A stretch of 64,000 nucleotides of DNA from a virus. The notes beneath the pieces were generated by a model, which worked only from the letters and a program-made list of their open reading frames with translations, searched no databases and was not told where the DNA came from. The first letter of the stretch is position 1. Every line of letters begins with the position of its first letter. The position numbers and the translations under genes are program-made. Positions 1 to 62,987 of the stretch are shown piece after piece. The stretch covers positions 1-64,000 of the IMG/VR virus record IMGVR_UViG_3300020192_000008. One strand, written 5' to 3'.

Positions 1-1
1 G

Positions 2-229
2 GGTGAGGTGTACCAGCGGGGGGTCCAAATGGGCTCACGACGATTCGCGGACGACATCGTCCGGTTGGTGGAGGCCTGTGTTGGGCCGTGCGCGACAGAT
101 GACGAGGTCGAGCTTGGGCTCGTGATCGTGCGCTCGGCTGGGTCGGAGAAGGCAGCGCGAGCACGCGCTGACCAGGTAGCGGTACGCCGCGTAACCATCA
201 GGGGTAATGGGGCGGGTTTCCTCGGGTTA
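2..229 (+). CDS. Hypothetical protein, partial at left edge, ends at TTA
   Basis: The reading frame is open from the first bases, so the gene probably begins to the left of the window; a GTG at 8 is the first visible start. The product is small and mixed in charge, with no family I recognise. It meets an in-frame TTA at 227-229, and under the standard code would run five more codons to TAG at 242-244. That TTA and that TAG lie in the two copies of a 14-bp tandem duplication, so the stop region looks duplicated. A structured stretch and a terminator follow before the convergent minus-strand gene. Confidence 0.4.
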
Positions 230-244
230 GGTTCCTCGGGTTAG
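218..244. repeat. 14-bp tandem duplication at a gene end
   Basis: The 13-mer TTCCTCGGGTTAG is present at 218-230 and again at 232-244, one G apart. In the frame of the plus-strand gene the first copy reads as TTA and the second as TAG. Confidence 0.85.
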
Positions 245-379
245 CGACCCGTGACGTCGCTCGTGCGCTCCTACGAAGAAGTGGAGAAGCCTTCAATCGA
301 TGAAGGTTCTAGCGATAGGCTTGCGATGCACGAACTCGTGCCCAGCGCCGCTAGAACAACTTCGAGCGAAGTGAAAGAA
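245..379 (+). other. Intergenic stretch with two small hairpins
   Basis: I see no convincing gene here. Inverted repeats CCTTCA/TGAAGG (290-306) and CACGA/TCGTG (near 325-336) could fold in the 3' untranslated part of the upstream transcript. No tRNA cloverleaf could be fitted. Confidence 0.3.
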
Positions 380-405
380 AGAGGGTGGGTTCGCCCCTCT
401 TTTCT
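380..405 (+). terminator. Intrinsic terminator
   Basis: A G-rich/C-rich hairpin with a TTCG loop (AGAG-GGTGGG-TTCG-CCC-CTCT) is followed by TTTTCTTAG. It lies between the convergent genes ending at 229/244 and 417. Confidence 0.65.
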
Positions 406-416
406 TAGCACCAACT

Positions 417-752
417 CTACGTGGGAATGAAGGCTGAACCAGCTGTCATAGCCATGTTCGCCTTGTTCCCCGTCCTGGCCATGTTCTGGAAGTGCCCCAG
501 GGCCCCCTTGGCCACCAGGCTGATGGGCCCTTCCTGATGCAGGCTGCTACCCCCCATCCCTGCCAGGGCATGCGAAGCGATCGAGTTGGCGTGGTAGTTC
601 AAGCTTCGCGCTGCAGGGGCCACTTTCGCCCCGACGGTCTTCATGGTGTCCATGAAGCCCGCATCTTTCTCTTGGGCGGCGATCTTCTCGAGCTCGTCGC
701 TGAAAGCGGCGTACATGGCGGGGGACATGGTCATGGTGAGCTCAAGATACAT
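417..752 (-). CDS. Small virion-type protein with KIA signature
   Basis: This 111-residue protein contains FSDELEKIAAQEKDAG near its start, the Glu-Lys-x-Ala signature that recurs in the minus-strand virion proteins of this window. A mildly hydrophobic Gly/Ala/Met-rich C-terminus follows. I chose the start at 752 (GGTGGAAG just before ATG); in-frame ATGs slightly downstream are possible. It ends at TAG just before the terminator hairpin. The role is unknown; the shared signature suggests a structural protein. Confidence 0.6.
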   Translation of the reverse strand: MYLELTMTMSPAMYAAFSDELEKIAAQEKDAGFMDTMKTVGAKVAPAARSLNYHANSIASHALAGMGGSSLHQEGPISLVAKGALGHFQNMARTGNKANMAMTAGSAFIPT

Positions 753-759
753 CTTCCAC
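747..759. repeat. 13-bp motif ATACATCTTCCAC, copy 1
   Basis: An identical 13-mer is found at 1435-1447 and 7237-7249, in each case 37 to 46 bp upstream of a GGnATAAGA box on the plus strand. Here it also covers the start of the minus-strand gene (GTGGAAGATGTAT read the other way). Confidence 0.6.
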
Positions 760-789
760 CCCTAAACAGGCAAAAACAGGGCCTTTTAG

Positions 790-806
790 GGCATAAGAAC
801 AATGGA
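790..806 (+). promoter_or_regulatory. Putative promoter box P1
   Basis: GGCATAAGAACAATGG matches the box seen in front of other plus-strand genes. It is followed by AAACTCAACTCC and a hairpin (CCTACA-TTG-TGTAGG, about 822-836), then the gene starting at 866. There is no recognisable -35 hexamer at sigma-70 spacing. Confidence 0.6.
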
Positions 807-865
807 AGGAAACTCAACTCCTACATTGTGTAGGCGGTTGGCGAGGTACTTCCCCACGGGTCACC

Positions 866-1102
866 ATGGATTACCGCGAAGTCGCGGTTCGGGTTCTGTT
901 TGCGGTCGTGCGCGTGGCCACGTGGATCAACACGCGTCTGGTCAACGTGTACGGGATGTTCGGGTACTTCCACCTGGCCGTCAAGCTTGCCGGGAAGATG
1001 GAGCAGCTGAAGGAGAGGATCTCGGCGAGGCTGACGCCCGCCTTCCACGCGGCGTGCCAGAGAGAGATGGTGCGGGGGGTGGACATCGACTGGGAGAACT
1101 AG
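866..1102 (+). CDS. Hypothetical 78-residue protein
   Basis: The gene starts at ATG 866 about 60 bases after box P1 and the leader hairpin; the leader GAGGTAC is shared with the gene at 1547. The product has a hydrophobic N-terminal half (VLFAVVRVATWI region, possibly one membrane-seeking segment) and a charged C-terminus. It ends at TAG directly before a terminator. It is probably an early-type accessory gene of unknown function. Confidence 0.6.
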   Translation: MDYREVAVRVLFAVVRVATWINTRLVNVYGMFGYFHLAVKLAGKMEQLKERISARLTPAFHAACQREMVRGVDIDWEN

Positions 1103-1105
1103 AAG

Positions 1106-1136
1106 AAGGGGGACTAGTCTCCCTCCTTTTTCTTAG
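1106..1136 (+). terminator. Intrinsic terminator
   Basis: Hairpin GGGGGA-CTAG-TCTCCC is followed by CCTTTTTCTTAG, 4 bases after the stop of the 866 gene. The TTTTTCTTAGCTC tail recurs at other terminators of this region. Confidence 0.7.
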
Positions 1137-1166
1137 CTCTAGAACAGCAAAGAGATGGCGCTTCAA

Positions 1167-1184
1167 GGTATAAGAGTAGTGAAG
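1167..1184 (+). promoter_or_regulatory. Putative promoter box P2
   Basis: GGTATAAGAGTAGTGAAG closely matches box P3 (ATAAGAGTAGTGAAGGGAAACTC). No good open reading frame follows for 360 bp, so it may drive a non-coding transcript. Confidence 0.55.
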
Positions 1185-1192
1185 GGAACTCT

Positions 1193-1216
1193 AGAAGTGT
1201 CTTTAGAAGTGTCTTT
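1193..1216. repeat. 12-bp tandem repeat, two copies
   Basis: AGAAGTGTCTTT occurs twice in a row (1193-1204 and 1205-1216), just downstream of box P2, where other boxes are followed by a hairpin. Confidence 0.8.
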
Positions 1217-1398
1217 AGTTGTGTCGGAGCGTGCTGTGTGTCGTTTTGCCTGATAGATCGAAGTAGGTTGCCACTACTTAGATTGGCGGATGCAGAGCAG
1301 GAGTAAAGCCTACTCCTGGGTAGGAGATGTTTGGGTATCCACGTCCCTGCATTGCCGTGGAAAAGGGTCCTGAGAGCTACCTCAGGGAATGACGGGCA

Positions 1399-1428
1399 GA
1401 GGGAATCCTCGCTCCCCTTTTTCTTAGC
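1399..1428 (+). terminator. Weak intrinsic terminator
   Basis: GAGGGA...TCCC can pair over a short loop, followed by CCCTTTTTCTTAGCTCC, the tail shared with stronger terminators here. Confidence 0.4.
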
Positions 1429-1434
1429 TCCCGA

Positions 1435-1447
1435 ATACATCTTCCAC
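1435..1447. repeat. 13-bp motif ATACATCTTCCAC, copy 2
   Basis: Identical to 747-759 and 7237-7249; it lies between a terminator tail and box P3. Confidence 0.6.
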
Positions 1448-1468
1448 CTCAAAGAGTGGGGTAAAGGG

Positions 1469-1487
1469 GGGATAAGAGTAGTGAAGG
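1469..1487 (+). promoter_or_regulatory. Putative promoter box P3
   Basis: GGGATAAGAGTAGTGAAGG is followed by GAAACTCAACTTC, as after P1, and by a hairpin TCTGC-AATCTC-GCAGA (about 1498-1514). The GAGGAGGTACC ribosome site follows. Confidence 0.6.
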
Positions 1488-1546
1488 GAAACTCAACTTC
1501 TGCAATCTCGCAGATGGTGAGGAGGTACCTTTCACGGTGATTACCA

Positions 1547-2170
1547 TTGAAGACGCTCCAGGAACGCCTGGTTGCGATTCGTACGGCGTCCTCGATGGAG
1601 GAGCTCGCCGGCATCTGGGCCTACCTCAAGGCCATGCCGTCGAGCCGTGCGCACGGGTTTACGCCGGAGGGGCAAGCGATGCTTGAGCATATTGAGTGCC
1701 CTCCCGAGGCGCTCCTTGTGCTCACGCGCGCTGCTCCTCAGTGGGTGGCTCTCCACCCGCGATGGGAGCTGTACTGCTTCACGATGCCTGAGCTTGTAGA
1801 GGCTTGGGACTTCGCGACAGGGTGGCCCATCAAAGACCATCTCGTTCGGCTGCAAGCCGATCGAAAAGTGGCGTATCGCTGCAAGGCGAAGATCCTAGAG
1901 GCTGCTGCCCGATACGTCGGGAAGAGGTGCCCAGATCTGACCCCGGAGCTGACATGGAGGTTCACGCAGAACCTCAACAGCTTTCGCGCCCATCTCGACG
2001 AGTTCGAGAAGGCGGCCCAGGCGGGGCAGCGACACAAGTTCTGGGAGCACCTCTACAAGGTGTACGCCCAGTACAAGGACATCCCCTGCACCTCCAGCAA
2101 GGAGGTGTGGGAGAGAGTCACTTACGACGACGGCATCGACCTGGGTGACGACCCGGATGATGACGACTAG
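1547..2170 (+). CDS. Hypothetical 207-residue protein
   Basis: The protein is soluble-looking, rich in Trp, Leu and charged residues, and ends in a run of acidic residues (DLGDDPDDDD). The frame is clearly coding, with strong GC at third positions. The start is not certain: TTG at 1547 fits best after GAGGAGGTAC, and aligning the leader with that of the 866 gene puts the start at this spot. It stops at TAG before a strong terminator. I do not recognise a family. Confidence 0.7.
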   Translation: MKTLQERLVAIRTASSMEELAGIWAYLKAMPSSRAHGFTPEGQAMLEHIECPPEALLVLTRAAPQWVALHPRWELYCFTMPELVEAWDFATGWPIKDHLVRLQADRKVAYRCKAKILEAAARYVGKRCPDLTPELTWRFTQNLNSFRAHLDEFEKAAQAGQRHKFWEHLYKVYAQYKDIPCTSSKEVWERVTYDDGIDLGDDPDDDD

Positions 2171-2176
2171 CGGATC

Positions 2177-2209
2177 GAGGCCCCTCGGGAGGGGGCCTCT
2201 CCTCTTTTT
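2177..2209 (+). terminator. Strong intrinsic terminator
   Basis: A perfect 8-bp stem GAGGCCCC/GGGGCCTC (2177-2184 and 2192-2199) is followed by TCCTCTTTTTAG. It sits between convergent genes ending at 2170 and 2219. Confidence 0.8.
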
Positions 2210-2218
2210 AGCTCCTGG

Positions 2219-2485
2219 TTAGATGACCAAGGATTGCGACTTGATCAAAAAGTCCTTTACGTCCCTGGGCACCTGCCTGCCCATGTAGGGCTCGCCCTGC
2301 TGGATGGCGAAGGCCGCTGCCTTGACCTGCACCAGGTAGGGGTCTTCGACCACGATCTTGTCTCGCATCGTGAGCGTGTAAAGCCGCCCGTCCTTAGCGA
2401 AGGTGACCTTCGTCTCCGTCCTGCACGGACCACAAGAGGGGGGCTCTGCGAGGATCTGACCTGGTTGAAACAAGAGTGACTTCAT
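2219..2485 (-). CDS. Hypothetical 88-residue protein with CGPC motif
   Basis: This small soluble protein has a CxxC-type pair (SCGPCRTE, residues about 17-24), then alternating beta-like segments. It lies just downstream of the 1229-residue structural gene and is probably cotranscribed with it. It ends at TAA before the bidirectional terminator. Function unknown. Confidence 0.6.
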   Translation of the reverse strand: MKSLLFQPGQILAEPPSCGPCRTETKVTFAKDGRLYTLTMRDKIVVEDPYLVQVKAAAFAIQQGEPYMGRQVPRDVKDFLIKSQSLVI

Positions 2486-2517
2486 TACTTCTTTCCTCCA
2501 GCCGCGTCTGGCTAATA

Positions 2518-5500
2518 CTACGGGGTAGTCACCTTTTTCTTGGCCTCACCCTTGGTACCCGCCACAGCATCACCGATCTCCGCAGCAGAGGCCGTTTTTC
2601 CTGCGATTAGAGCCAAAAGCTTCATAGAACCTTCCGCTGCCTTGGCCGTAGCAGCTGTGTTCTGTTTGATGGCGGCCGACTGGGGATCGTCCTTCTCCTG
2701 CTTCTTGAGCTTGGCTTCCTTGAGTGCATCGGAACCGCCGAGGTTTGCAGCAAGACGAGCAGCTCCTGCCTTATCACCACCCTTGAACTTCTCGGTGATG
2801 TTCTGCAAGTCTTCCATGTACGCCTGACCAGACTTGCTCTTGGTGTCGATACCCTGAGCCTGGGCAAGCTGTTTGGCAGCATCACCAGAGCCACCAGCGA
2901 ACAGCTTGTTAGCGCTCTGCTGGTCCATGCTGATACCGAGGGCATCTGCCAGGCCCTTGTTGCCTCCGGAGCTCATCTTCTTCTGAAGACCAGCCACGTA
3001 GTTGAGCTCGTCAGCCTGGTCTCCCAGGCCTTTCTTACGCATGATGGTAGCCGTAGCGAGCTTCTGCTGGACGGTCATGTTGTCCCCCTGCTCACCGGCC
3101 ATCTTGCGAGAGGCACGGCCCTTGTCGCTGTACTCCTCATCGCCGGCGCCGCCGTGCATCTTGCTCTCAGCCTGGGTGGCCTCGAGGATAGATGCGACGT
3201 AGCCCTGACCAGCCGCACCACCCTTGGCAGTCAGCTCATCGGCCGTCTTGGAGTCGAGCTCCATCTCCCCTTGATCGTTCCAGGTAGCCAGGCCCGAAGT
3301 CCTGACGTTATCCATCGTGTCAGCAGCGATCTTCCCGTACTTCTTGGTAGCGCCGTAGAACTCTTCCTTGTTCTTGCTATCGACGAGGCCAAACACGCCC
3401 TTGGCCCGCTGCTCGAAGGCTTCAGGGGACAAGCCGTGCTTCTTTGCCAGTCCAGCAATCTTGTCCGGGTCCTTGGCAGCGTCGCCGTACTCCTGGGCCA
3501 TGGTGGTCATTTCAAGGAAGTCTCGCTCACCCTTTTCATCGTCGGTGAGAGAGTCCTTGCGGTTGAGGTCCGCCATCCTCTTGGAGGTCTTCTTCAGGGC
3601 ATCTTCGCGGCTCTCGGCGTTGCGGCCGATCATGTCTCGAGCGGCGTTGATGCCCTCGTCACTGTCCGCGAACTTACCCAGGCCCCTACGAGCTCCAGTA
3701 CCAGATCCACCCTCCTTGCTGGTGAAGTAGTCATCCATGGAGCCCCTCAGAGAGTCCTGCTGGGCACCAAAACCAAACAGGTCGTCGCTAAGGCCAAGGG
3801 CTTTGGCTCCTGCACCGATGCCTTCAAGAGGAGCCGTACCGGCCAGGACCAAAGCTCGAGCCCCACCGCTAATCATGCGACCCTTACTGGCCTTGCCCGT
3901 GGCGTAGTCGGTAATAGACTCACCATCCCTCTTCTTCTGTAGATCCTGGGCCTCATTGGACCCATAGAGGTAGTCGCTGATCTTGTCTGCGCGATCACCT
4001 TCACTGGCCCCCATAGAGGCGCTGAAGAGGTTGGTGACATCAGGTGCAAGGTACTTCTGTCTCTCTTCCTTGCCCTGTCCAATGACGTCAGCGGCGGCAG
4101 TGATCAAGCCCACCTTGTTTCCAAGAGAGTCCGCATTGTTTCCAATCTCGCCCTGATGCCGCAGCTCCTTGAGAATGCTGTTGGATTCATCACCACCCTT
4201 CTTCTTCAAGTACTTGGTGATGCTATCGATACGCTTTTCACCGCTGCCCTGGATGGACTTGTCGGCGAACATCTCTGTGAAGAAGTTCTCGTGCTTCTTG
4301 GCGAACTGAAGGTTCTCGATCTTCGCGTCTTGGGTAGCTGCCTTGTGAGCTCCCATGTTCCGCTTCATCTCGTAATCGAAGGTCTTCTCGTCCGTGTGTG
4401 CTTTTGCACTGAACGAATATCCAGCCTTCTGGAAGCGGTCTGAGTCGCTCGAGAGAAGACCCAGCTTCGTAGCTGCGTCTCCCGTCATTCCGCCTTTGTC
4501 TCCGAAGAAACGCTGCTGAGCACTGGGGCCGCTGAGCAAACCACCGCCCCCAGTCTTGCCGCCACCAAGCACGCGGTTGTAGGCATCGTTACTCACAGCT
4601 CCTGAACCCCTCGAGGTACGCCACGCCCGGTCAGCCTGCTCGCTGAAGTGCTGGACGTACTGACCTGAGACCTTGTTCGACCAGGCCTCCAGGGTGTCCG
4701 AGCCAGCCGAGAACATGTCTGCGCCGATCTGCTGCAGCTTGCCCTGCAGACCTTCGCGGGCCTTCTCGAAGTTCTTCGAGAGACCAGAAAGGCCTTGGCC
4801 CTTCTTGTAGTCCTGCACCCTCTGGTTGTGCTTGTCGTCCTGACCCGAGCGGGACATCGTCCGCATCATCTCGGGCAGGTTGTCCACCATCTTGATGGCT
4901 GCGTCTGCCTCATCACGGCCCAGGCCAGAGAAGCGCTGGAAGGCGAGCATGGACCTGTCGTCCATGTTGCCGGGCTTGTGGCCACGGGATTCGAGCCACT
5001 GGCTGTACGCCATCGTGGGGGCCATCATCCCAAACTTCTCAAGAGCCCCTCCTCTCAACCTTCCTTCATTACGTATGAAGTTTGCACGGCCTACGCCGTT
5101 GAGGTTCTGACCGGCGAGCTCCATCGTTCGCCCCGTAGACATACCCCCACCCATCCACTCGGCGACCGCATCCTCATTGAGGTTGCCGTCTTTACCCGCA
5201 ACAGAGGCAAGGAACCTGCGCCCACGTCCGGACTTCAAGAAGTCAGCAGACTTGCCCATCATGTTAGAGGTGAACGCTTGGCGACCTTCAGCCCCCGTCT
5301 GACCCGTGGCGTTGTAAATGTCCTCCTCGGACAGCGCCCCGTTCTTCATCGCGGTCCCAACCTGACCGATGGCCAGCATGCCGCCAAAGGCGCCGCTTCT
5401 GCCCAGTCCGCCTACGGACCGGGAGATCTGCGAACCGATGGATGCCATGCCGGTGACTTCGCTCATCGCAAGCCCGCCCGCAGCAGCCATCCCTCGTACC

Positions 5501-6207
5501 CCGGCGCTCATCCGGAGCTGGTCTGCCTTCTGGAAGACACCTGCCCCCTTTACCGAGTGGATGAACTTCTGGGCCTCCTCGAGCGAGGAACCCATGTCGG
5601 TCGCGACCTTCTTCAAGGTGTCGACCATCTGTTTGAACTTGTCCTTGAACTCCGTGACTGAGGTGACGCCCTGCGCCATCCCCATCTTGCCCATGTTGCC
5701 GGCAAGCTTGGTGAGCTCAGCGAACCCGGTGATCTCCCCACCGGGTCCGGAGTCATGCGTCATCCCGCGCATGTGCTGACCGATCGAGGCTGACTGCTGG
5801 TTGGTGAAGCCACGGCCGCCTAGCTGGTTGGTGAAGTTGAAGTTCGACCGCATGGTCTGGTTCAACATCCCCTGCTGCTGACCGCCTTGGTACATCTGGC
5901 TGCCGATGTACTGACCCCCGGCCATCAAGGCCCCGGCCCCACCAGCGACACCCATGCCGACGGCGCCGGCGCCCATGACGCCCATCCCCATCTTGCCGTA
6001 CACGCTTGAAGCGGCACGCAAGCCAAGGCTCATCGGGTCCATGCCGAAGGCGCCCATAGCGCCTTGAAGCATGGGTGCACCTGCGGCCATCCCGCGGGCC
6101 ATCATCCCGCCCATGGCCGTATCCATGCCGGCCTGCTGGCCGCCAGCACCCATGATTTGGCCCATGAAGCCACCCCACGGGATGCCCCCAGGCGAGAGGT
6201 TCATCAT
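2518..6207 (-). CDS. Large M/G/A-rich structural protein, tape-measure candidate
   Basis: The 1229-residue protein opens with about 150 residues very rich in Met, Gly and Ala, including hydrophobic stretches able to cross a membrane. A long hydrophilic, largely helical body follows, rich in Lys, Asp, Gly and Gln, and the C-terminus is Lys/Ala-rich. Size and composition suit a tail tape measure or an internal virion protein. No peptidase or lysozyme motif was seen. It is the longest minus-strand gene of the left part and its promoter side faces box P4. The tape-measure call is inference: length alone cannot separate it from an ejected inner-head protein. Confidence 0.5.
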   Translation of the reverse strand: MMNLSPGGIPWGGFMGQIMGAGGQQAGMDTAMGGMMARGMAAGAPMLQGAMGAFGMDPMSLGLRAASSVYGKMGMGVMGAGAVGMGVAGGAGALMAGGQYIGSQMYQGGQQQGMLNQTMRSNFNFTNQLGGRGFTNQQSASIGQHMRGMTHDSGPGGEITGFAELTKLAGNMGKMGMAQGVTSVTEFKDKFKQMVDTLKKVATDMGSSLEEAQKFIHSVKGAGVFQKADQLRMSAGVRGMAAAGGLAMSEVTGMASIGSQISRSVGGLGRSGAFGGMLAIGQVGTAMKNGALSEEDIYNATGQTGAEGRQAFTSNMMGKSADFLKSGRGRRFLASVAGKDGNLNEDAVAEWMGGGMSTGRTMELAGQNLNGVGRANFIRNEGRLRGGALEKFGMMAPTMAYSQWLESRGHKPGNMDDRSMLAFQRFSGLGRDEADAAIKMVDNLPEMMRTMSRSGQDDKHNQRVQDYKKGQGLSGLSKNFEKAREGLQGKLQQIGADMFSAGSDTLEAWSNKVSGQYVQHFSEQADRAWRTSRGSGAVSNDAYNRVLGGGKTGGGGLLSGPSAQQRFFGDKGGMTGDAATKLGLLSSDSDRFQKAGYSFSAKAHTDEKTFDYEMKRNMGAHKAATQDAKIENLQFAKKHENFFTEMFADKSIQGSGEKRIDSITKYLKKKGGDESNSILKELRHQGEIGNNADSLGNKVGLITAAADVIGQGKEERQKYLAPDVTNLFSASMGASEGDRADKISDYLYGSNEAQDLQKKRDGESITDYATGKASKGRMISGGARALVLAGTAPLEGIGAGAKALGLSDDLFGFGAQQDSLRGSMDDYFTSKEGGSGTGARRGLGKFADSDEGINAARDMIGRNAESREDALKKTSKRMADLNRKDSLTDDEKGERDFLEMTTMAQEYGDAAKDPDKIAGLAKKHGLSPEAFEQRAKGVFGLVDSKNKEEFYGATKKYGKIAADTMDNVRTSGLATWNDQGEMELDSKTADELTAKGGAAGQGYVASILEATQAESKMHGGAGDEEYSDKGRASRKMAGEQGDNMTVQQKLATATIMRKKGLGDQADELNYVAGLQKKMSSGGNKGLADALGISMDQQSANKLFAGGSGDAAKQLAQAQGIDTKSKSGQAYMEDLQNITEKFKGGDKAGAARLAANLGGSDALKEAKLKKQEKDDPQSAAIKQNTAATAKAAEGSMKLLALIAGKTASAAEIGDAVAGTKGEAKKKVTTP

Positions 6208-6265
6208 GCCCGAAAGGGTAGCACGCCCCTTGACCTAGTTGACGGCTCAACTTCTGACCCCTTTC

Positions 6266-6281
6266 GGGGATAAGAACAATG
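6266..6281 (+). promoter_or_regulatory. Putative promoter box P4
   Basis: GGGGATAAGAACAATG lies in the divergent gap 6208-6312, followed by hairpin CAGC-CCCTCA-GCTG and then AAGGAGG (6300-6306). Confidence 0.6.
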
Positions 6282-6312
6282 ACAGCCCCTCAGCTGCTGC
6301 AAGGAGGTAGAG

Positions 6313-6645
6313 GTGTTCGTAGTTCTTCTGGGGCTAGTCGCCCTGCGCGGCGCCGTTCGCGGTGTGGCTAACAGGGTGTTCGAGCACAACCTCACCCAGA
6401 TGCTGGGTGATGTTAGTCATCAAAAGGTCTGTGGTCGTCATGACGTTCTCCTGACTATCGAAGAGCAGGTGGAGTTCCTGGTGGCCGGGGAGAACAAGAA
6501 GAAGGAAATCTTCGGGCTGGGCGTTGACCGCTGGGAGGCCTTCTCCCGCATGTACAAGGACCAGCCGGAGGAGCTGGCCAAAGTCGACTGCTTCAACTGC
6601 AGTACCTGTGGCAGGGTTCATCCCAAGAGGGACCATGCCGCGTAA
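6313..6645 (+). CDS. Hypothetical protein with N-terminal hydrophobic segment and Cys cluster
   Basis: The start is GTG 6313, six bases after a near-perfect AAGGAGG. The first 20 residues are hydrophobic (VVLLGLVALRGAVRG), suggesting a membrane anchor or signal segment. The C-terminus carries CFNCSTCGRVHP, a possible metal site. It is transcribed from box P4, divergently from the large structural gene. Function unknown. Confidence 0.6.
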   Translation: MFVVLLGLVALRGAVRGVANRVFEHNLTQMLGDVSHQKVCGRHDVLLTIEEQVEFLVAGENKKKEIFGLGVDRWEAFSRMYKDQPEELAKVDCFNCSTCGRVHPKRDHAA

Positions 6646-6666
6646 CGACATCACAAGAGGGACCAT
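6624..6666. repeat. 13-bp direct repeat
   Basis: CAAGAGGGACCAT is found at 6624-6636 and 6654-6666, 30 bp apart, spanning the end of the 6313 gene and the following gap. Confidence 0.8.
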
Positions 6667-6729
6667 TGCTCATGAACTGTTCAGTCACCCTTGGTGAGGT
6701 TCGCGGGGGGCAAAAGCTCCGCGAAATGC

Positions 6730-6746
6730 GGGATAAGAAGAATGAG
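6730..6746 (+). promoter_or_regulatory. Putative promoter box P5
   Basis: GGGATAAGAAGAATGAG is followed by a leader in which GGGAAG pairs with CTTCCC (about 6746-6767), then AAGGAATCCACC before the ATG at 6795. Confidence 0.6.
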
Positions 6747-6794
6747 GGAAGCTCTACTACATCTTCCCAATCAACGCCCGAGAAGGAATCCACC

Positions 6795-7181
6795 ATGGCC
6801 CAGCCCACCGTCGACCTCAACACCGTTCCTGCCACCAACGGCAGCAAGAAGGAAAAGACCATGACTCAGCAGGATGTCACCGACCACCTCTACCAGAAGC
6901 TCGTCGAGCTCGAGAGGAAGGTGAGCGCGTTCGACACGCTCTCCAAGGCCAAGGAGAAGGAAGTGGAGGCGCTCGAGAGCAAGCTCAAGGCCGAGACCGA
7001 GGCCAAGGAGAAGGCCGCAACAGAGGCCAAGGAGAAGGCCGAGGCCAAGGAGAAGGCCGAGACCGCGTGGGGGTCGCTCAAGAAGCGACCCGGTCTGACG
7101 ACAGCTGTGCTTGGTATAGGGGCGGTGATTGGGGTCGGTGGCACCCTCCTGGTGCAGCACTACACCATCGATCCGATCTGA
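6795..7181 (+). CDS. Coiled-coil protein with C-terminal membrane anchor
   Basis: About 128 residues. A polar N-terminus leads into a Lys/Glu/Ala coiled coil with repeated AKEKA units (residues about 50-95), then one clear transmembrane segment near the C-terminus (TTAVLGIGAVIGVGGTLLV). It looks like a tail-anchored helical rod. ATG 6795 is preferred over earlier in-frame Mets because AAGGAATC precedes it and because the upstream part overlaps box P5. It could be an inner-membrane accessory or holin-like protein, but nothing decides this. Confidence 0.65.
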   Translation: MAQPTVDLNTVPATNGSKKEKTMTQQDVTDHLYQKLVELERKVSAFDTLSKAKEKEVEALESKLKAETEAKEKAATEAKEKAEAKEKAETAWGSLKKRPGLTTAVLGIGAVIGVGGTLLVQHYTIDPI

Positions 7182-7200
7182 GCAGCCGGGGGGCAAGGAG

Positions 7201-7229
7201 AAAGGGCGCCTGTGGCCCTTTCTTTTTAG
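7201..7229 (+). terminator. Intrinsic terminator
   Basis: Stem AAAGGGC/GCCCTTT (7201-7207 and 7215-7221) with TCTTTTTAG tail. Confidence 0.8.
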
Positions 7230-7236
7230 CACCTAA

Positions 7237-7249
7237 ATACATCTTCCAC
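7237..7249. repeat. 13-bp motif ATACATCTTCCAC, copy 3
   Basis: Identical to copies at 747-759 and 1435-1447; again between a terminator tail and a GGGATAAGA box. Confidence 0.6.
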
Positions 7250-7274
7250 TCTGTAGCAAAGGGCTCTTCTTCTA

Positions 7275-7290
7275 GGGATAAGAACAATGG
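7275..7290 (+). promoter_or_regulatory. Putative promoter box P6
   Basis: GGGATAAGAACAATGG is followed by hairpin GGAGG-GCTACCAA-CCTCC, an AGGAGAAGAG ribosome site and ATG 7321. Confidence 0.65.
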
Positions 7291-7320
7291 AGGGCTACCA
7301 ACCTCCAGGAGAAGAGAGCC

Positions 7321-7992
7321 ATGAAAGCTTTCACTGTTACAGAGCAAGCGACGAAGGGGATTCAGATTCCAGTTCTGTTGGGCAACGACAACGCCTTCTT
7401 CGGCATGCGTGTCGGGGGAGGGCTGTTGGGCGACCTGAAGAAGGCACTCGAGGTTGAACTCGAGATGGCCAACAAGGAGGATGAGCTCAAAGAGCTGACT
7501 CAGTACATCGATACTCTAGAGAGCATGCTCGGCGGCAGGGCTGTTGCTCCGATGCTGCTGCAGTCCTTGGACATGAACAAGGACAGGACGCACATCATGC
7601 GAGAGAACTCGGTGGGCAACAGGGACGCGCTCATCCACCTGGTCACAAAGACAGGGGATGGGGGCAAGATCAACCTGTATGCGAACACCGTTGATGAAGT
7701 TGAGGACGCAGATGGAGTGCTGCGCATCCCCCGACCGTTCCCTCCTCCAGGTGTGCAGCTCGTGGGGGAAACGGATACGGATACGGGTAAAGAGTGGCTC
7801 ATCAAGATGAGGCCACGCAGCAGCTTCAAGATCATCAGGTCAGGGGACCTGCAGGGTGCCCCACCCGAGCTTGTGGTGCTGTGGACGGGGAGGTGGCAGA
7901 GCCGTGTCTTCGAGAACTCTCGAAGCTTCCACGACCCGAGTGAATGGGGCCTGCGGGTCTTCCACCGCGACAGGGGGCCTCACCGCAGGTAA
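7321..7992 (+). CDS. Hypothetical 223-residue protein
   Basis: The gene follows box P6 and a strong AGGAGAAGAG ribosome site. The soluble product has a helical middle (KKALEVELEMANKEDELKEL) and a beta-rich C-terminal half. I do not recognise it. Its TAA stop at 7990-7992 is, read on the other strand, the TTA that closes the convergent gene, so the two genes share one triplet. A terminator hairpin follows six bases later, inside the convergent gene. Confidence 0.65.
   Translation: MKAFTVTEQATKGIQIPVLLGNDNAFFGMRVGGGLLGDLKKALEVELEMANKEDELKELTQYIDTLESMLGGRAVAPMLLQSLDMNKDRTHIMRENSVGNRDALIHLVTKTGDGGKINLYANTVDEVEDADGVLRIPRPFPPPGVQLVGETDTDTGKEWLIKMRPRSSFKIIRSGDLQGAPPELVVLWTGRWQSRVFENSRSFHDPSEWGLRVFHRDRGPHRR
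7990..7992. other. Shared stop triplet: TAA on plus, TTA on minus
   Basis: TAA is the stop of the plus-strand gene 7321-7992. The same base pairs read TTA in the frame of the minus-strand gene that starts at 8202. Confidence 0.55.
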
Positions 7993-8202
7993 GGGGAGAG
8001 GGGCGTCAAGCCCCTCTTTCTTAGCCGCTATCTTGAGCTTGTAGTAGAGGTACGTCTTGATGATGGCGAACTCGCTGGGGGTGAGCGGCACCTTGTCTAC
8101 GGTGGTGAGGAACCACACCTCGAAGTCTCGGATGTCTTCGTCCACAAAGGCTTCGAGCTTATCTTCCGTAGGTTCACTGAGCTTGACTTCAACACGCTTC
8201 AT
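7990..8202 (-). CDS. Hypothetical 70-residue protein, ends at TTA
   Basis: The product MKRVEVKLSEP... is a small acidic helical protein with a Tyr/Lys-rich helix near the end. Under the standard code the frame stays open to 7840 across the antisense of the 7321 gene, and that extra part has the Arg/Pro/Val composition of a shadow frame. With TTA (7990-7992) as stop it ends at the exact triplet that is the TAA of the convergent gene. Function unknown. Confidence 0.5.
7998..8022 (+). terminator. Intrinsic terminator
   Basis: Perfect stem GAGGGGC/GCCCCTC (7998-8004, 8010-8016) followed by TTTCTTAG, after the stop at 7992. Confidence 0.75.
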
Positions 8203-8232
8203 GCCGCGAAGTTACCACGAAGAAAGAGATCT

Positions 8233-8640
8233 ATGTTTCTGATAACTGACCTTCAGGAAAGCAACCTTGAGGACCTGGCAACCCTCGACGAAGAGGTCTT
8301 CGAGGACTTCTGCCTCCCCATCGGTACGCTGCGCAAGGAGTGGCGGGCAGGGGCTGTGCCCATGGTCGTCGACCTCGATGTAGACAAGCTAGCGGCCTAC
8401 GCTGTGTGCCGGTATGAAGACGGCATCGTCGACATCCTGCGTCTGGGTGTAGGCAAGAGGTACAGGGGGCATGGCCTTGCAAGGGGTCTGCTCGACGACA
8501 TTACCTGGAGGTACCCAGGCAAGCCTCAGATGCTCTGCGTCCGTAAGGAGAACGCCAGAGCACGGGGCATCTACCTCAAGGCAGGCTTTAGAATCGTGAG
8601 CCAGATAGACCTCTCCTGGGTGATGCGTCGCGACTGTTAG
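8233..8640 (+). CDS. GNAT-family N-acetyltransferase
   Basis: The 135-residue protein has the GNAT fold signature. Motif A, the acetyl-CoA pyrophosphate loop, reads LGVGKRYRGHGLARGLL (residues about 74-90), and the later NARARGIYLKAGF is the usual motif B region. The length matches single-domain GNATs. The substrate is not predictable; in phages such enzymes have been linked to modification of host proteins or small molecules. The ATG at 8233 lies 30 bp from the divergent 8202 gene and the gap has no P box. Confidence 0.85.
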   Translation: MFLITDLQESNLEDLATLDEEVFEDFCLPIGTLRKEWRAGAVPMVVDLDVDKLAAYAVCRYEDGIVDILRLGVGKRYRGHGLARGLLDDITWRYPGKPQMLCVRKENARARGIYLKAGFRIVSQIDLSWVMRRDC

Positions 8641-8650
8641 ACTCAGCCCC

Positions 8651-9115
8651 ATGGTCCCAGAGAAGGCTTACCAGGCGTTCTTCAAGTTCGCGAAAGAACA
8701 GAAGGAGATCTATCGGCAGGTGGGCAACGTCCTACTTGATCGAGACATCCCCATCATCCCCCGCCTGCCCAGCGACAAGGGCAAGGCCCGAGCTCTGCTC
8801 GAGAACCACATCAGGGCAGCTGAGAGTGAGAACTGGACACACCCCCAGGTAGCCGTTCGCAAGCTCGACCTCAAGGGCATGGGCTTTGAGCCGACGCGAG
8901 CAGCCATCCCCCTGCCTGGGGAGAAATGGTTCACGCCTTCGTACCGTTCAGGGAAGATGCACGCCCACAAGATGGGGCCGTTCTACCTGGTGCATGAGGA
9001 TGAGTCAGCCCCCAAGGGCTTCGCTGACACCGTCTCGCACCTGATCAAAGACACGCCCAAACCCCTGCTGAAACGCATCTTCGAGAAGATCCCCCCGCCC
9101 GTGGTCAACCGGTGA
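8651..9115 (+). CDS. Hypothetical 154-residue protein
   Basis: The gene begins 10 bp after the GNAT gene, so the two are likely cotranscribed. The product is basic and soluble, with no signal peptide and no family I recognise. It ends at TGA shortly before box P7. Confidence 0.65.
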   Translation: MVPEKAYQAFFKFAKEQKEIYRQVGNVLLDRDIPIIPRLPSDKGKARALLENHIRAAESENWTHPQVAVRKLDLKGMGFEPTRAAIPLPGEKWFTPSYRSGKMHAHKMGPFYLVHEDESAPKGFADTVSHLIKDTPKPLLKRIFEKIPPPVVNR

Positions 9116-9132
9116 TAAGGAGCCATCATTTC

Positions 9133-9151
9133 GGGGATAAGAAGAGTGATG
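9133..9151 (+). promoter_or_regulatory. Putative promoter box P7, abutting a start codon
   Basis: GGGGATAAGAAGAGTGATG matches the box consensus and runs directly into the ATG at 9149, leaving no room for a leader. Either the transcript is leaderless or the gene is read from upstream. Confidence 0.5.
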
Positions 9152-9808
9152 GCAATCATTACCAAGCAGACCGGACTCGAGAAGTTGGCCCATGACATCC
9201 GTGAGGGTGCAGAGCTGAGGGTGTACCGTTCACCCGAGGAGAAGAAGAGGCTCGAGGAGAAGTTGCTGGAGATCTCTCAGGGTAAGCTCTTCGACATCAA
9301 CGAGGGGCTCTGGGTCATGCTGCACGATCTCGTCGCCAAGCACTCGCCCTCGGCAGCGAAGTACCTGAGGAGAGTCAGGCACGTGGATGACCGGCACACG
9401 TACGTCATCGTGATGCGTGGAGATTTCGGTGCGTTGGCTAGAGATGGAGGAGATCAAGACGCCCGCATGTTCATCAGCATGCATCCGGGGCTGCTTGAGG
9501 TGGCTGACGTCGTGGCTGGGAGCGGGCACTACACCGCGATGGTGAACCTCTCGATGGAGGAGGAGCTCGAAGAGCAGGTGGAGTTCCTAGTGTCTGACTT
9601 CGAGGAGCTCTGGCTTCTGCGAGGGCCTGTGTGCCCCAACCAAGATGAGGTCCTCGACACGGACCTGTTCTGGGTAGCGCAGACCTTGGAGCTCGAGCAC
9701 TCCTACTGCGACGTGTGCCGCGAGTGCACGAGAGGCGTGCAGAAGAGGCCGCTGCCATCCAAGGCAGACATGCTCCGCCTGCAGAAGGAAGACAAGAAGC
9801 GGAACTGA
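9149..9808 (+). CDS. Hypothetical protein with C-terminal Cys cluster
   Basis: The 219-residue product is soluble and acidic, with SYCDVCRECTRG close to the C-terminus (CxxCxxC, a possible metal site) and a Lys-rich tail. GTG 9146 and ATG 9149 are both possible starts. It is followed by a strong terminator. I do not recognise a family. Confidence 0.65.
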   Translation: MAIITKQTGLEKLAHDIREGAELRVYRSPEEKKRLEEKLLEISQGKLFDINEGLWVMLHDLVAKHSPSAAKYLRRVRHVDDRHTYVIVMRGDFGALARDGGDQDARMFISMHPGLLEVADVVAGSGHYTAMVNLSMEEELEEQVEFLVSDFEELWLLRGPVCPNQDEVLDTDLFWVAQTLELEHSYCDVCRECTRGVQKRPLPSKADMLRLQKEDKKRN

Positions 9809-9812
9809 AGCT

Positions 9813-9845
9813 GAGCCCCCTTGCCGGGGGCTCTCTTCTTTTCTA
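9813..9845 (+). terminator. Strong intrinsic terminator
   Basis: Perfect 8-bp stem GAGCCCCC/GGGGGCTC (9813-9820, 9826-9833) followed by TCTTCTTTTCTAG; it lies between convergent genes. Confidence 0.8.
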
Positions 9846-9850
9846 GCTCC

Positions 9851-10279
9851 TCAGTCGCCGAAGTAGATGGGCTCGGGACGAAGGTCCTCGTCACTGACCT
9901 CGCCGGCGGCCAGCTTGAGAGCACGCTCATTGGCATCGAGCTCCTTGAAGGGGGTGTTCTCAAGGCGCCATGCCTTGTACGCCTGCATGAACTCGATGAG
10001 CCCGTGCATGACCCAGAGCTCCCCCTCGAGGGTCTGAAGGTAGCCGTCCACCTGGCCTGAGGGATCTCTCTCGAAGGAGTGAACGTTGTTCACGAAGTCC
10101 CTGGCGAGTAGCCCACGAGTAGCCCTGTTCTGGATGTTCGAGCGCACCTCCAGGAAGAAGATGCTCTCGTGGAAGGCCTGGGTGTTCTGGTCGTGCGTGC
10201 GTGCGAGGAGCTCGTAGTTACGCTCCAGGGTCGCCAGACGCATCTCCGTCGTCGTCGGGGTGTGCGATTCGCTTGACAT
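9851..10279 (-). CDS. Hypothetical 142-residue protein
   Basis: Last gene of a long minus-strand run. ATG 10279 is chosen because GAGGAAAG lies just upstream; the longer frame to 10498 runs over the previous gene and is Ser/Arg-rich, as a shadow frame would be. The product is helical and acidic, ending EPIYFGD. Function unknown. Confidence 0.65.
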   Translation of the reverse strand: MSSESHTPTTTEMRLATLERNYELLARTHDQNTQAFHESIFFLEVRSNIQNRATRGLLARDFVNNVHSFERDPSGQVDGYLQTLEGELWVMHGLIEFMQAYKAWRLENTPFKELDANERALKLAAGEVSDEDLRPEPIYFGD

Positions 10280-22537: not shown

Positions 22538-22621
22538 AGCTTTATCCCTTGGCCATCAGCTGTTAGCGAGGCCTGGCAACGCCTTCTTCAGGCGCGTCTT
22601 GTTGATGAACTAGAAGGAGTA

Positions 22622-23038
22622 CTAATCCTCGTTCTTCGGAAGCACAAGACGATTCTTCTCAGCGGGGAAAGAAATCTTCATCAGACTCTCGGAGACTGAC
22701 GTAGGAAGCTCACGGCCGATGCCTGCTTGCGGACGGTAATACGCACCAGGAGGTATCTGCTGCATCTTCTCGGCGTTGTACCGAAGCTCTTGCCGACGAA
22801 CAACGCCGCCCACAGTCTGGTCTTCGACCTCTTCGATCTTCACATAGCCGAAGATCTCATCGTCCATCGAGAACCAGAGGAAGTCCCCGGCAGAGATCGA
22901 CTTGAAGGGGTAGCGGGTGACGATGAAGGAGTCGCCCTGGACGCACCACTTGTAGAAGCGAAACCAAGAAGAGGTGTCGCCGTCACCGGCCGGGGCCGGG
23001 TCTTTAGCGATCATGGCGTAAACGTAGTGCCTGGGCAT
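22622..23038 (-). CDS. Hypothetical 138-residue protein
   Basis: Aromatic, beta-rich protein (SWFRFYKWCVQGDSFIVTRYP) with a polar C-terminus, divergent from the endolysin-like gene. It ends at TAG. No family recognised. Confidence 0.6.
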   Translation of the reverse strand: MPRHYVYAMIAKDPAPAGDGDTSSWFRFYKWCVQGDSFIVTRYPFKSISAGDFLWFSMDDEIFGYVKIEEVEDQTVGGVVRRQELRYNAEKMQQIPPGAYYRPQAGIGRELPTSVSESLMKISFPAEKNRLVLPKNED

Positions 23039-23096
23039 CGATGCTCTTGTACCTGCCTTCCTCCGCTCTTTTCAAGAGGGACTGTACCATCGCGGT

Positions 23097-62872: not shown

Positions 62873-62987
62873 CTTTGTGTCTCTGGTGAGGGTACTCCAC
62901 GCGCAAGAGTCGGTGCAAGGTACGCTTTTTCAGCGGCATAAGGACTTTGATTGGGCACTAGCGCTCAGTCTCAAGGAGATGCGAAGC
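62873..62987. promoter_or_regulatory. Divergent control region with box P8
   Basis: This gap separates the RNA polymerase gene (minus) from the plus-strand genes at the right edge. CGGCATAAGGACTTTGA (62934-62950) is a weaker match to the box found at 790-9151. No clear sigma-70 promoter is visible for the polymerase gene. Confidence 0.4.

Follow-up and report, generated by a model that had tools for sequence, protein, structure and literature searches.

How does a phage that encodes its own multisubunit RNA polymerase (RNAP) mark the genes to be transcribed? The question is raised by a short box which recurs in front of plus-strand genes of a virus known from the linear, 107,272-bp IMG/VR record IMGVR_UViG_3300020192_000008 (60% GC). 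The stretch analysed here, bases 1–64,000 of that record, is called the window. The window phage is a myovirus, as its tail sheath and major head protein attest, and its RNAP unites the β and β′ subunits in one chain. The record is probably a fragment, since end repeats are absent and the last gene seems to have an open frame heading to the right end; a search for contigs extending this end found none. The boxes recur in a near-identical contig from sample 3300020596. Taken together, the sequence comparisons below make it quite probable that the box is the promoter of the non-structural genes and is read by a virion-carried phage holoenzyme, composed of the fused RNAP and a phage sigma factor.

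Box copies and promoter anatomy

Strong copies of the box start on the plus strand at 790, 1167, 1469, 6267, 6730, 7275 and 9134, and all of them precede plus-strand genes or a small structured RNA. A matrix built from these seven copies ranks them 1–7 on both strands of the whole 107-kb contig, and every one remains within the top 7 when it is left out of the training. With at most three mismatches, 11 box matches are found compared with 2.1 ± 1.45 in shuffled sequences, and none of 100 shuffles reached 11. Likewise, the pattern GGNATAAGR with a pyrimidine at −1 and a purine at +1 occurs nine times on the plus strand and never on the minus strand (Markov simulations: mean 0.5, maximum 2). The seven good copies listed in a preliminary description of this DNA are therefore real and their distribution is not random. 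Most of its coordinates are exact, although three lay one base early (correct positions 6267, 9134 and 62935).

The copy at 62935, already noted there as a weaker one, matches less well; we accept it as real because the orthologous divergent intergenic site keeps the box in two relatives, reading GGCATAAGAGTTTTG in G2 and GAGATAAGGACTTCG in G3. The RNAPs of G2 and G3 are 64% and 68% identical to that of the window phage. Beyond the window, further plus-strand candidates lie at 89021 and 87081, and GGGATAAAGGAAACG stands before gene 72605, with GGCATAAGGACCTCG as its counterpart in G3. The consensus first proposed for the box is too narrow when taken literally: AGAGTAGTG stands at the end of boxes 1167 and 1469, and the consensus of the lineage is GGNATAAG-N5-YR. 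On the minus strand, a weak site before 22537 had been named as the sole copy. This site (GGGATAAAG at 22548) is in the wrong register for a start, whereas two others are credible, at 23053 (GGTACAAG) and, outside the window, at 97994 (GGTATAAG); a box similar to the former precedes the orthologous gene in G3. A count of words upstream of the minus-strand genes of the window phage yielded no clear motif.

Thirteen sites, ten from the 107-kb contig and three from relatives, were aligned on the box. A-11, T-10, A-9 and A-8 are invariant, G occupies −14, +1 and +5 in all 13 sites, G-7 is found in 12 of them, and −1 is T or C throughout. Contrary to the preliminary view that no −35 element sits at a fixed distance, GCAA recurs at an identical offset (14 nucleotides from GCAARR to GG) in six of the ten contig sites and CAA in eight. 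In 5000 random sets of ten windows, the best 4-mer reached at most 4 and the best 3-mer at most 5. The complete promoter can be written GCAARR-N14-GG-NATAAG-N5-Y-G(+1); GCAARR lies at −34 to −29, GG at −14 and −13, NATAAG at −12 to −7 and the pyrimidine at −1. A −35/−10 promoter read by a sigma-type factor should have its two elements a fixed distance apart and start at a purine after a pyrimidine (Y-1/R+1), and the box sites show both features. Judged by sequence, NATAAG is a bacterial-type −10 element with the predicted start seven bases downstream, and the box forms the 3′ part of a promoter with two elements, a transcription start signal.

Eight plus-strand promoters are predicted in the window. 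Promoter 1 (770–804) comprises a −35 GCAAAA at 770–775, the box at 790–804 and a predicted +1 at G804, and precedes gene 866–1102. Promoter 2 (1147–1181; GCAAAG 1147–1152, box 1167–1181, +1 G1181) precedes the structured noncoding RNA, and promoter 3 (1449–1483; TCAAAG 1449–1454, box 1469–1483, +1 G1483) precedes gene 1547–2170. Promoter 4 (6247–6281; box 6267–6281, +1 G6281) has a weak −35, TCAACT at 6247–6252, and is followed by gene 6313–6645. Promoter 5 (6710–6744; GCAAAA 6710–6715, box 6730–6744, +1 G6744) and promoter 6 (7256–7289; GCAAAG 7256–7261, box 7275–7289, +1 G7289) lie before genes 6795–7181 and 7321–7992; in the latter promoter the spacing is 13 and not 14. Promoter 7 (9114–9148; box 9134–9148, +1 G9148), with the poor −35 GATAAG, adjoins gene 9149–9808. 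Promoter 8 (62915–62949; GCAAGG 62915–62920, box 62935–62949, +1 G62949) sits in the divergent region which separates the RNAP gene from plus-strand genes. A weaker minus-strand candidate at 23039–23073 consists of GAAAAG, GGTACAAG and a predicted +1 at G23039, in front of gene 22622–23038 (ATG 23038).

At two sites, 9134–9151 (ATG 9149) and 23036–23053 (ATG 23038), the predicted +1 G adjoins the ATG. The mRNAs from the 9134 and 23053 sites could be leaderless, since this G is the base just before the start codon. A second short repeat, TACATCTTCCAC, is present 32–40 bases 5′ of three boxes, at 750–762, 1436–1448 and 7239–7251 of the window.

The box in related phages

By RNAP, the nearest annotated phages are the Vibrio phages D69, D148 and D181 and the Salmonella phage Arash, at ~31–32% identity. 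Words upstream of genes were counted without the box as input, so that the count is unbiased. The top word is GGTATAAG in Arash (17 regions, 0.39 expected) and GTTATAAG in D69 (15 regions, 0.51 expected). In Arash, 30 of the 31 copies are on the minus strand, home of most non-structural genes, and the same −1/+1 rule applies; in D69 the minus strand holds 18 of 19. A matrix trained on Arash alone places all seven window boxes among the top 13 places on the 107-kb contig, and promoter 2 is its top-scoring site. The box is not the top word in three split-RNAP phages, GN1, Carin-5 and TM21B, which have other top words. Upstream of several genes, two of these phages of low GC content, GN1 (W02) and Carin-5 (W03), carry GC-rich GGAGCGGCGGGG-like repeats.

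An RNAP-alignment scan gave 326 confirmed relatives, from which 80 IMG/VR loci were kept (L206–L285). On the strand opposite the RNAP, the top word of these loci is again GGTATAAG, found in 90 regions of 39 loci compared with 1.95 expected (log10 p −113). A set of 118 sites was drawn from the 80 loci, each with the box word followed by a ribosome-binding site and a start codon; +1 is a purine in 116 of them, and a weak −35 element reads T-36 Y-35 M-34 A-33 A-32. A scan of viral contigs for exact matches to a 14-base word returned at least 120; it was uninformative and was not used.

After G2 and G3, RNAP identity to the window phage falls to 53% in G039, 50% in G037, 44% in G033 and 37% in G025. 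GGTATAAG is the top upstream word of G033 (21 compared with 0.18 expected), and the GC-rich G039 favours GGGATAA, the variant of the window phage (7 compared with 0.17). The −35 element of both occupies the same position as in the window phage: A-32 in 29 of 29, A-31 in 28 of 29 and G-34 in 21 of 29 sites of G033, and CAA at −33 to −31 in G039. In G013, TTCAA lies one base further upstream, and in the subclade of Arash and D69 CAA is shifted ~1 nucleotide in that direction. The spacing of the −35 element thus follows the RNAP subclade.

Arash, D69, G033 and G039 all carry GGNATAAG-N5-YR upstream of genes and belong to one box class, and by its sites the window phage falls in this class too. 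On this comparison, the box tracks the fused-RNAP lineage from 100% to ~32% RNAP identity, whether the host is Salmonella, Vibrio or unknown, and among the phages examined it appears restricted to that lineage. The suggestion in the preliminary description that the box serves the phage polymerase gains support from this pattern and from the three split-RNAP phages. The proposed separation of these genes from the minus-strand late genes is supported as well, most copies of the box being on the strand that does not encode the RNAP and structural proteins.

The probable enzyme reading the box

The RNAP gene of the window phage (56492–62872, minus strand) encodes a single polypeptide of 2126 amino acids with Rpb2 and Rpb1 domains and the catalytic motif NADFDGD at residue 1397, and the product is a multisubunit-type RNAP. 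In G039, G037, G033 and G025, β and β′ likewise form a single polypeptide, whereas Arash and D69 encode the end of β′ as a separate protein. In the RNAP of G3 (contig L145–L146, 38699–46633), the catalytic motif is interrupted by a 522-amino-acid intein-like insertion that follows NADFDGD directly.

Two sigma70-like factors, gp10 and gp196, are encoded by Arash, and published proteomics detected gp10 together with both RNAP proteins in its virion (PMC10585845). Searched with a profile of gp10, all 15 records of the lineage that measure 144 kb or more contain a homologue, as does one fragment of 50 kb, and Pfam sigma-70 region 3 scores above its curated cut-off in the three gp10-type proteins scanned. 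In G025, G033 and G039 a profile search finds no gp196-type factor, though box words are present there; the gp10 type is therefore the better candidate for reading the box.

The gp196 type may pair with another word. In Arash, D69 and G012, all with a gp196-type sigma, the structural strand is enriched in TAAAATA, and in G025, G033 and G039 it is not. This pairing is tentative because G013 does not fit it and the genomes differ in base composition. A second promoter-like class, TAAAATATAnnTA, is seen on the strand of the RNAP and structural genes (in D69, W01, 17 of 19 copies are on the plus strand) and also in the 80 IMG/VR loci; it mostly co-occurs with a gp196-type sigma. A search of the minus strand of the window phage for an analogue of TAAAATA gave no convincing site.

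These features suggest the following sequence of events. A phage holoenzyme, the fused β–β′ RNAP with a small sigma70-family factor of the Arash gp10 type, would read the box, with sigma domain 4 contacting GCAA and sigma domain 2 melting ATAAG. By analogy with Arash, whose virion holds RNAP and sigma, the enzyme would enter the cell along with the injected DNA and initiate transcription of the non-structural genes and the small RNA, presumably early. Other promoters would serve the strand of the structural and RNAP genes, and the sigma gene of the window phage would lie outside the 107-kb fragment.

Several observations weigh against this proposal. No sigma gene is found in the 107-kb fragment or in G2 and G3; in the former, searches with Pfam regions 2 and 4, phmmer with the Arash and D69 factors, the gp10 and gp196 profiles and a hidden Markov model of seven sequences gave no match. 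The β′ coiled coil, the sigma dock in bacteria, is kept in length and diverged in sequence. Virion location is known for Arash alone. In G037, whose RNAP is 50% identical, the word count reveals no clear excess of the box, the +1 register is off by about one base in G013 and G025, and a good −35 element is absent at 6267 and 9134. A location of the sigma gene just beyond the right end was considered, as in Arash it lies near the homologue of gp14, and was dropped: in G039 and G033 the gene is tens of kb away. Given these differing positions, the claim is limited to the absence of the gene from the fragment.

Would a bacterial core suffice? A phage sigma could redirect the host RNAP core to the box, leaving the phage RNAP to another promoter class; this corresponds to the modified host enzyme of the preliminary description. 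The −35/−10 geometry suits a bacterial core, gp10-type factors occur in all near-complete relatives, and phages with their own sigma and without an RNAP are thought to act in this manner (PMC7598289). Set against this are the joint packaging of RNAP and gp10 in Arash and the distribution of the box, which accompanies the RNAP lineage from host to host, so that we regard such appropriation as unlikely. The box could instead be read by an ordinary or alternative host sigma factor. The two elements at standard spacing, ATAA at −11 to −8 and the Y-1/R+1 start do resemble bacterial sigma70 promoters. Unlike these, the box has GCAARR and not TTGACA, GG at −14/−13 and not TGn, and G-7 in place of the T of TATAAT in nearly all sites; consensus sigma70-type promoters number 0 in 1–9900, compared with 1.9 expected. 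The occurrence of one box class in phages of Salmonella and Vibrio and in one whose host is unknown argues in the same direction, and recognition by a host factor seems very improbable.

The box could also act in RNA or at another step, as a leader, processing or replication signal. Two leaders downstream of it, that of promoter 1 (804–865) and that of promoter 3 (1483–1546), are indeed structured and similar, with a hairpin kept despite changed pairs (CCTACA/TGTAGG compared with TCTGC/GCAGA), and ATG or GTG often stands at the box end. A role for these triplets as start codons was rejected, as no consistent reading frame follows the box, and the Y-1/G+1 rule accounts for its last bases. As there is also a fixed −35 element, and as many sites have a pyrimidine followed by a purine at +1, a function other than that of a promoter is the least probable of these alternatives. 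The phage holoenzyme is thus the preferred reader of the box.

Transcription units and known systems

Short transcription units lie downstream of the boxes and several end in T-run terminators; terminator-like sites in 1–9900 number 21, compared with 7.4 expected. The terminator scan places the end of the first putative box-driven unit at an intrinsic terminator at 1107–1130 (plus strand), and others lie at 383–403, 2177–2209 and 9813–9843. AGC or CTTAGC often stands directly 3′ of such terminators (383–403, 1107–1135, 2177–2210, 7220–7231 and 8012–8025 of the window). TTTTTAG is over-represented in Arash (34 compared with 4 for the reversed word), as is TTCTTAGC in D69 (19 compared with 1). 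The unit at 1181–1432 (plus strand), from promoter 2 to a T-run terminator, contains no convincing gene and is predicted to yield a small structured RNA of 252 nucleotides which folds better than most shuffles (z −2.1); an Rfam search with it found no relevant family. Intein/homing-type domains interrupt the terminase (LAGLIDADG), family A DNA polymerase and ThyX genes of the window phage (window 47968–51108; L008:17631–20000; L009:11891–13867).

Motifs tied to a virion-packaged multisubunit RNAP without α are known from phiKZ-type jumbo phages (PMC7598289). Like the box, the early promoters of the phiKZ/AR9 virion RNAPs are computationally found motifs near −10 before presumed early operons. 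In contrast to the box with its −35 element and G-7, these motifs are ~10 nucleotides long and AT-rich, and no −35 element is described. AR9 gp226, which gives the non-virion RNAP its specificity, does not resemble sigma in sequence, whereas the fused-RNAP lineage has a recognisable sigma70-family factor. A virion-RNAP promoter is thus of a known kind; a −35/−10 promoter with a sigma70-family partner departs from the phiKZ model.

Arash (OQ632216) and D69 (OZ195729) share with the window phage a homologous RNAP, capsid, sheath and portal, in Arash also the terminase, as well as the box class, and both carry a gp10-type sigma. They differ in the split β′, the −35 element ~1 nucleotide further upstream, and the additional gp196-type sigma and TAAAATA class on the structural strand. 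The mReC phages, metagenomic Caudoviricetes with deep-branching β and β′ subunits, probably include this lineage; promoters and sigma factors are unmentioned in their description (Weinheimer and Aylward 2020, PMC7481178). Neither an earlier description of the box promoter nor a report on promoter choice by fused or deep-branching phage RNAPs was found in the literature searched, which left out most subscription papers and all of bioRxiv.

It seems likely, then, that this myophage lineage injects a complete transcription machine, a β–β′ RNAP (a single polypeptide in one subclade) accompanied by a sigma70-family factor, which reads a −35/−10 class of its own (GCAARR-N14-GGNATAAG in the window phage), and that TAAAATA on the structural strand may be read by a second sigma, of the gp196 type, which one subclade possesses. 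Such a sigma-dependent phage RNAP would stand outside the phiKZ/AR9 model. Metagenomes commonly contain phages whose multisubunit RNAPs are fused or deep-branching, as the 326 confirmed matches of one scan attest, and the box probably shows how the RNAP of this lineage selects its genes. It provides a means of annotating transcription units in hundreds of uncultured genomes, and the box with its −35 element and the universal gp10-type sigma form a pair testable in the cultured phage Arash. If the proposal is true, the lineage would represent a second solution, unlike that of phiKZ/AR9, to the specificity of a viral RNAP without α.

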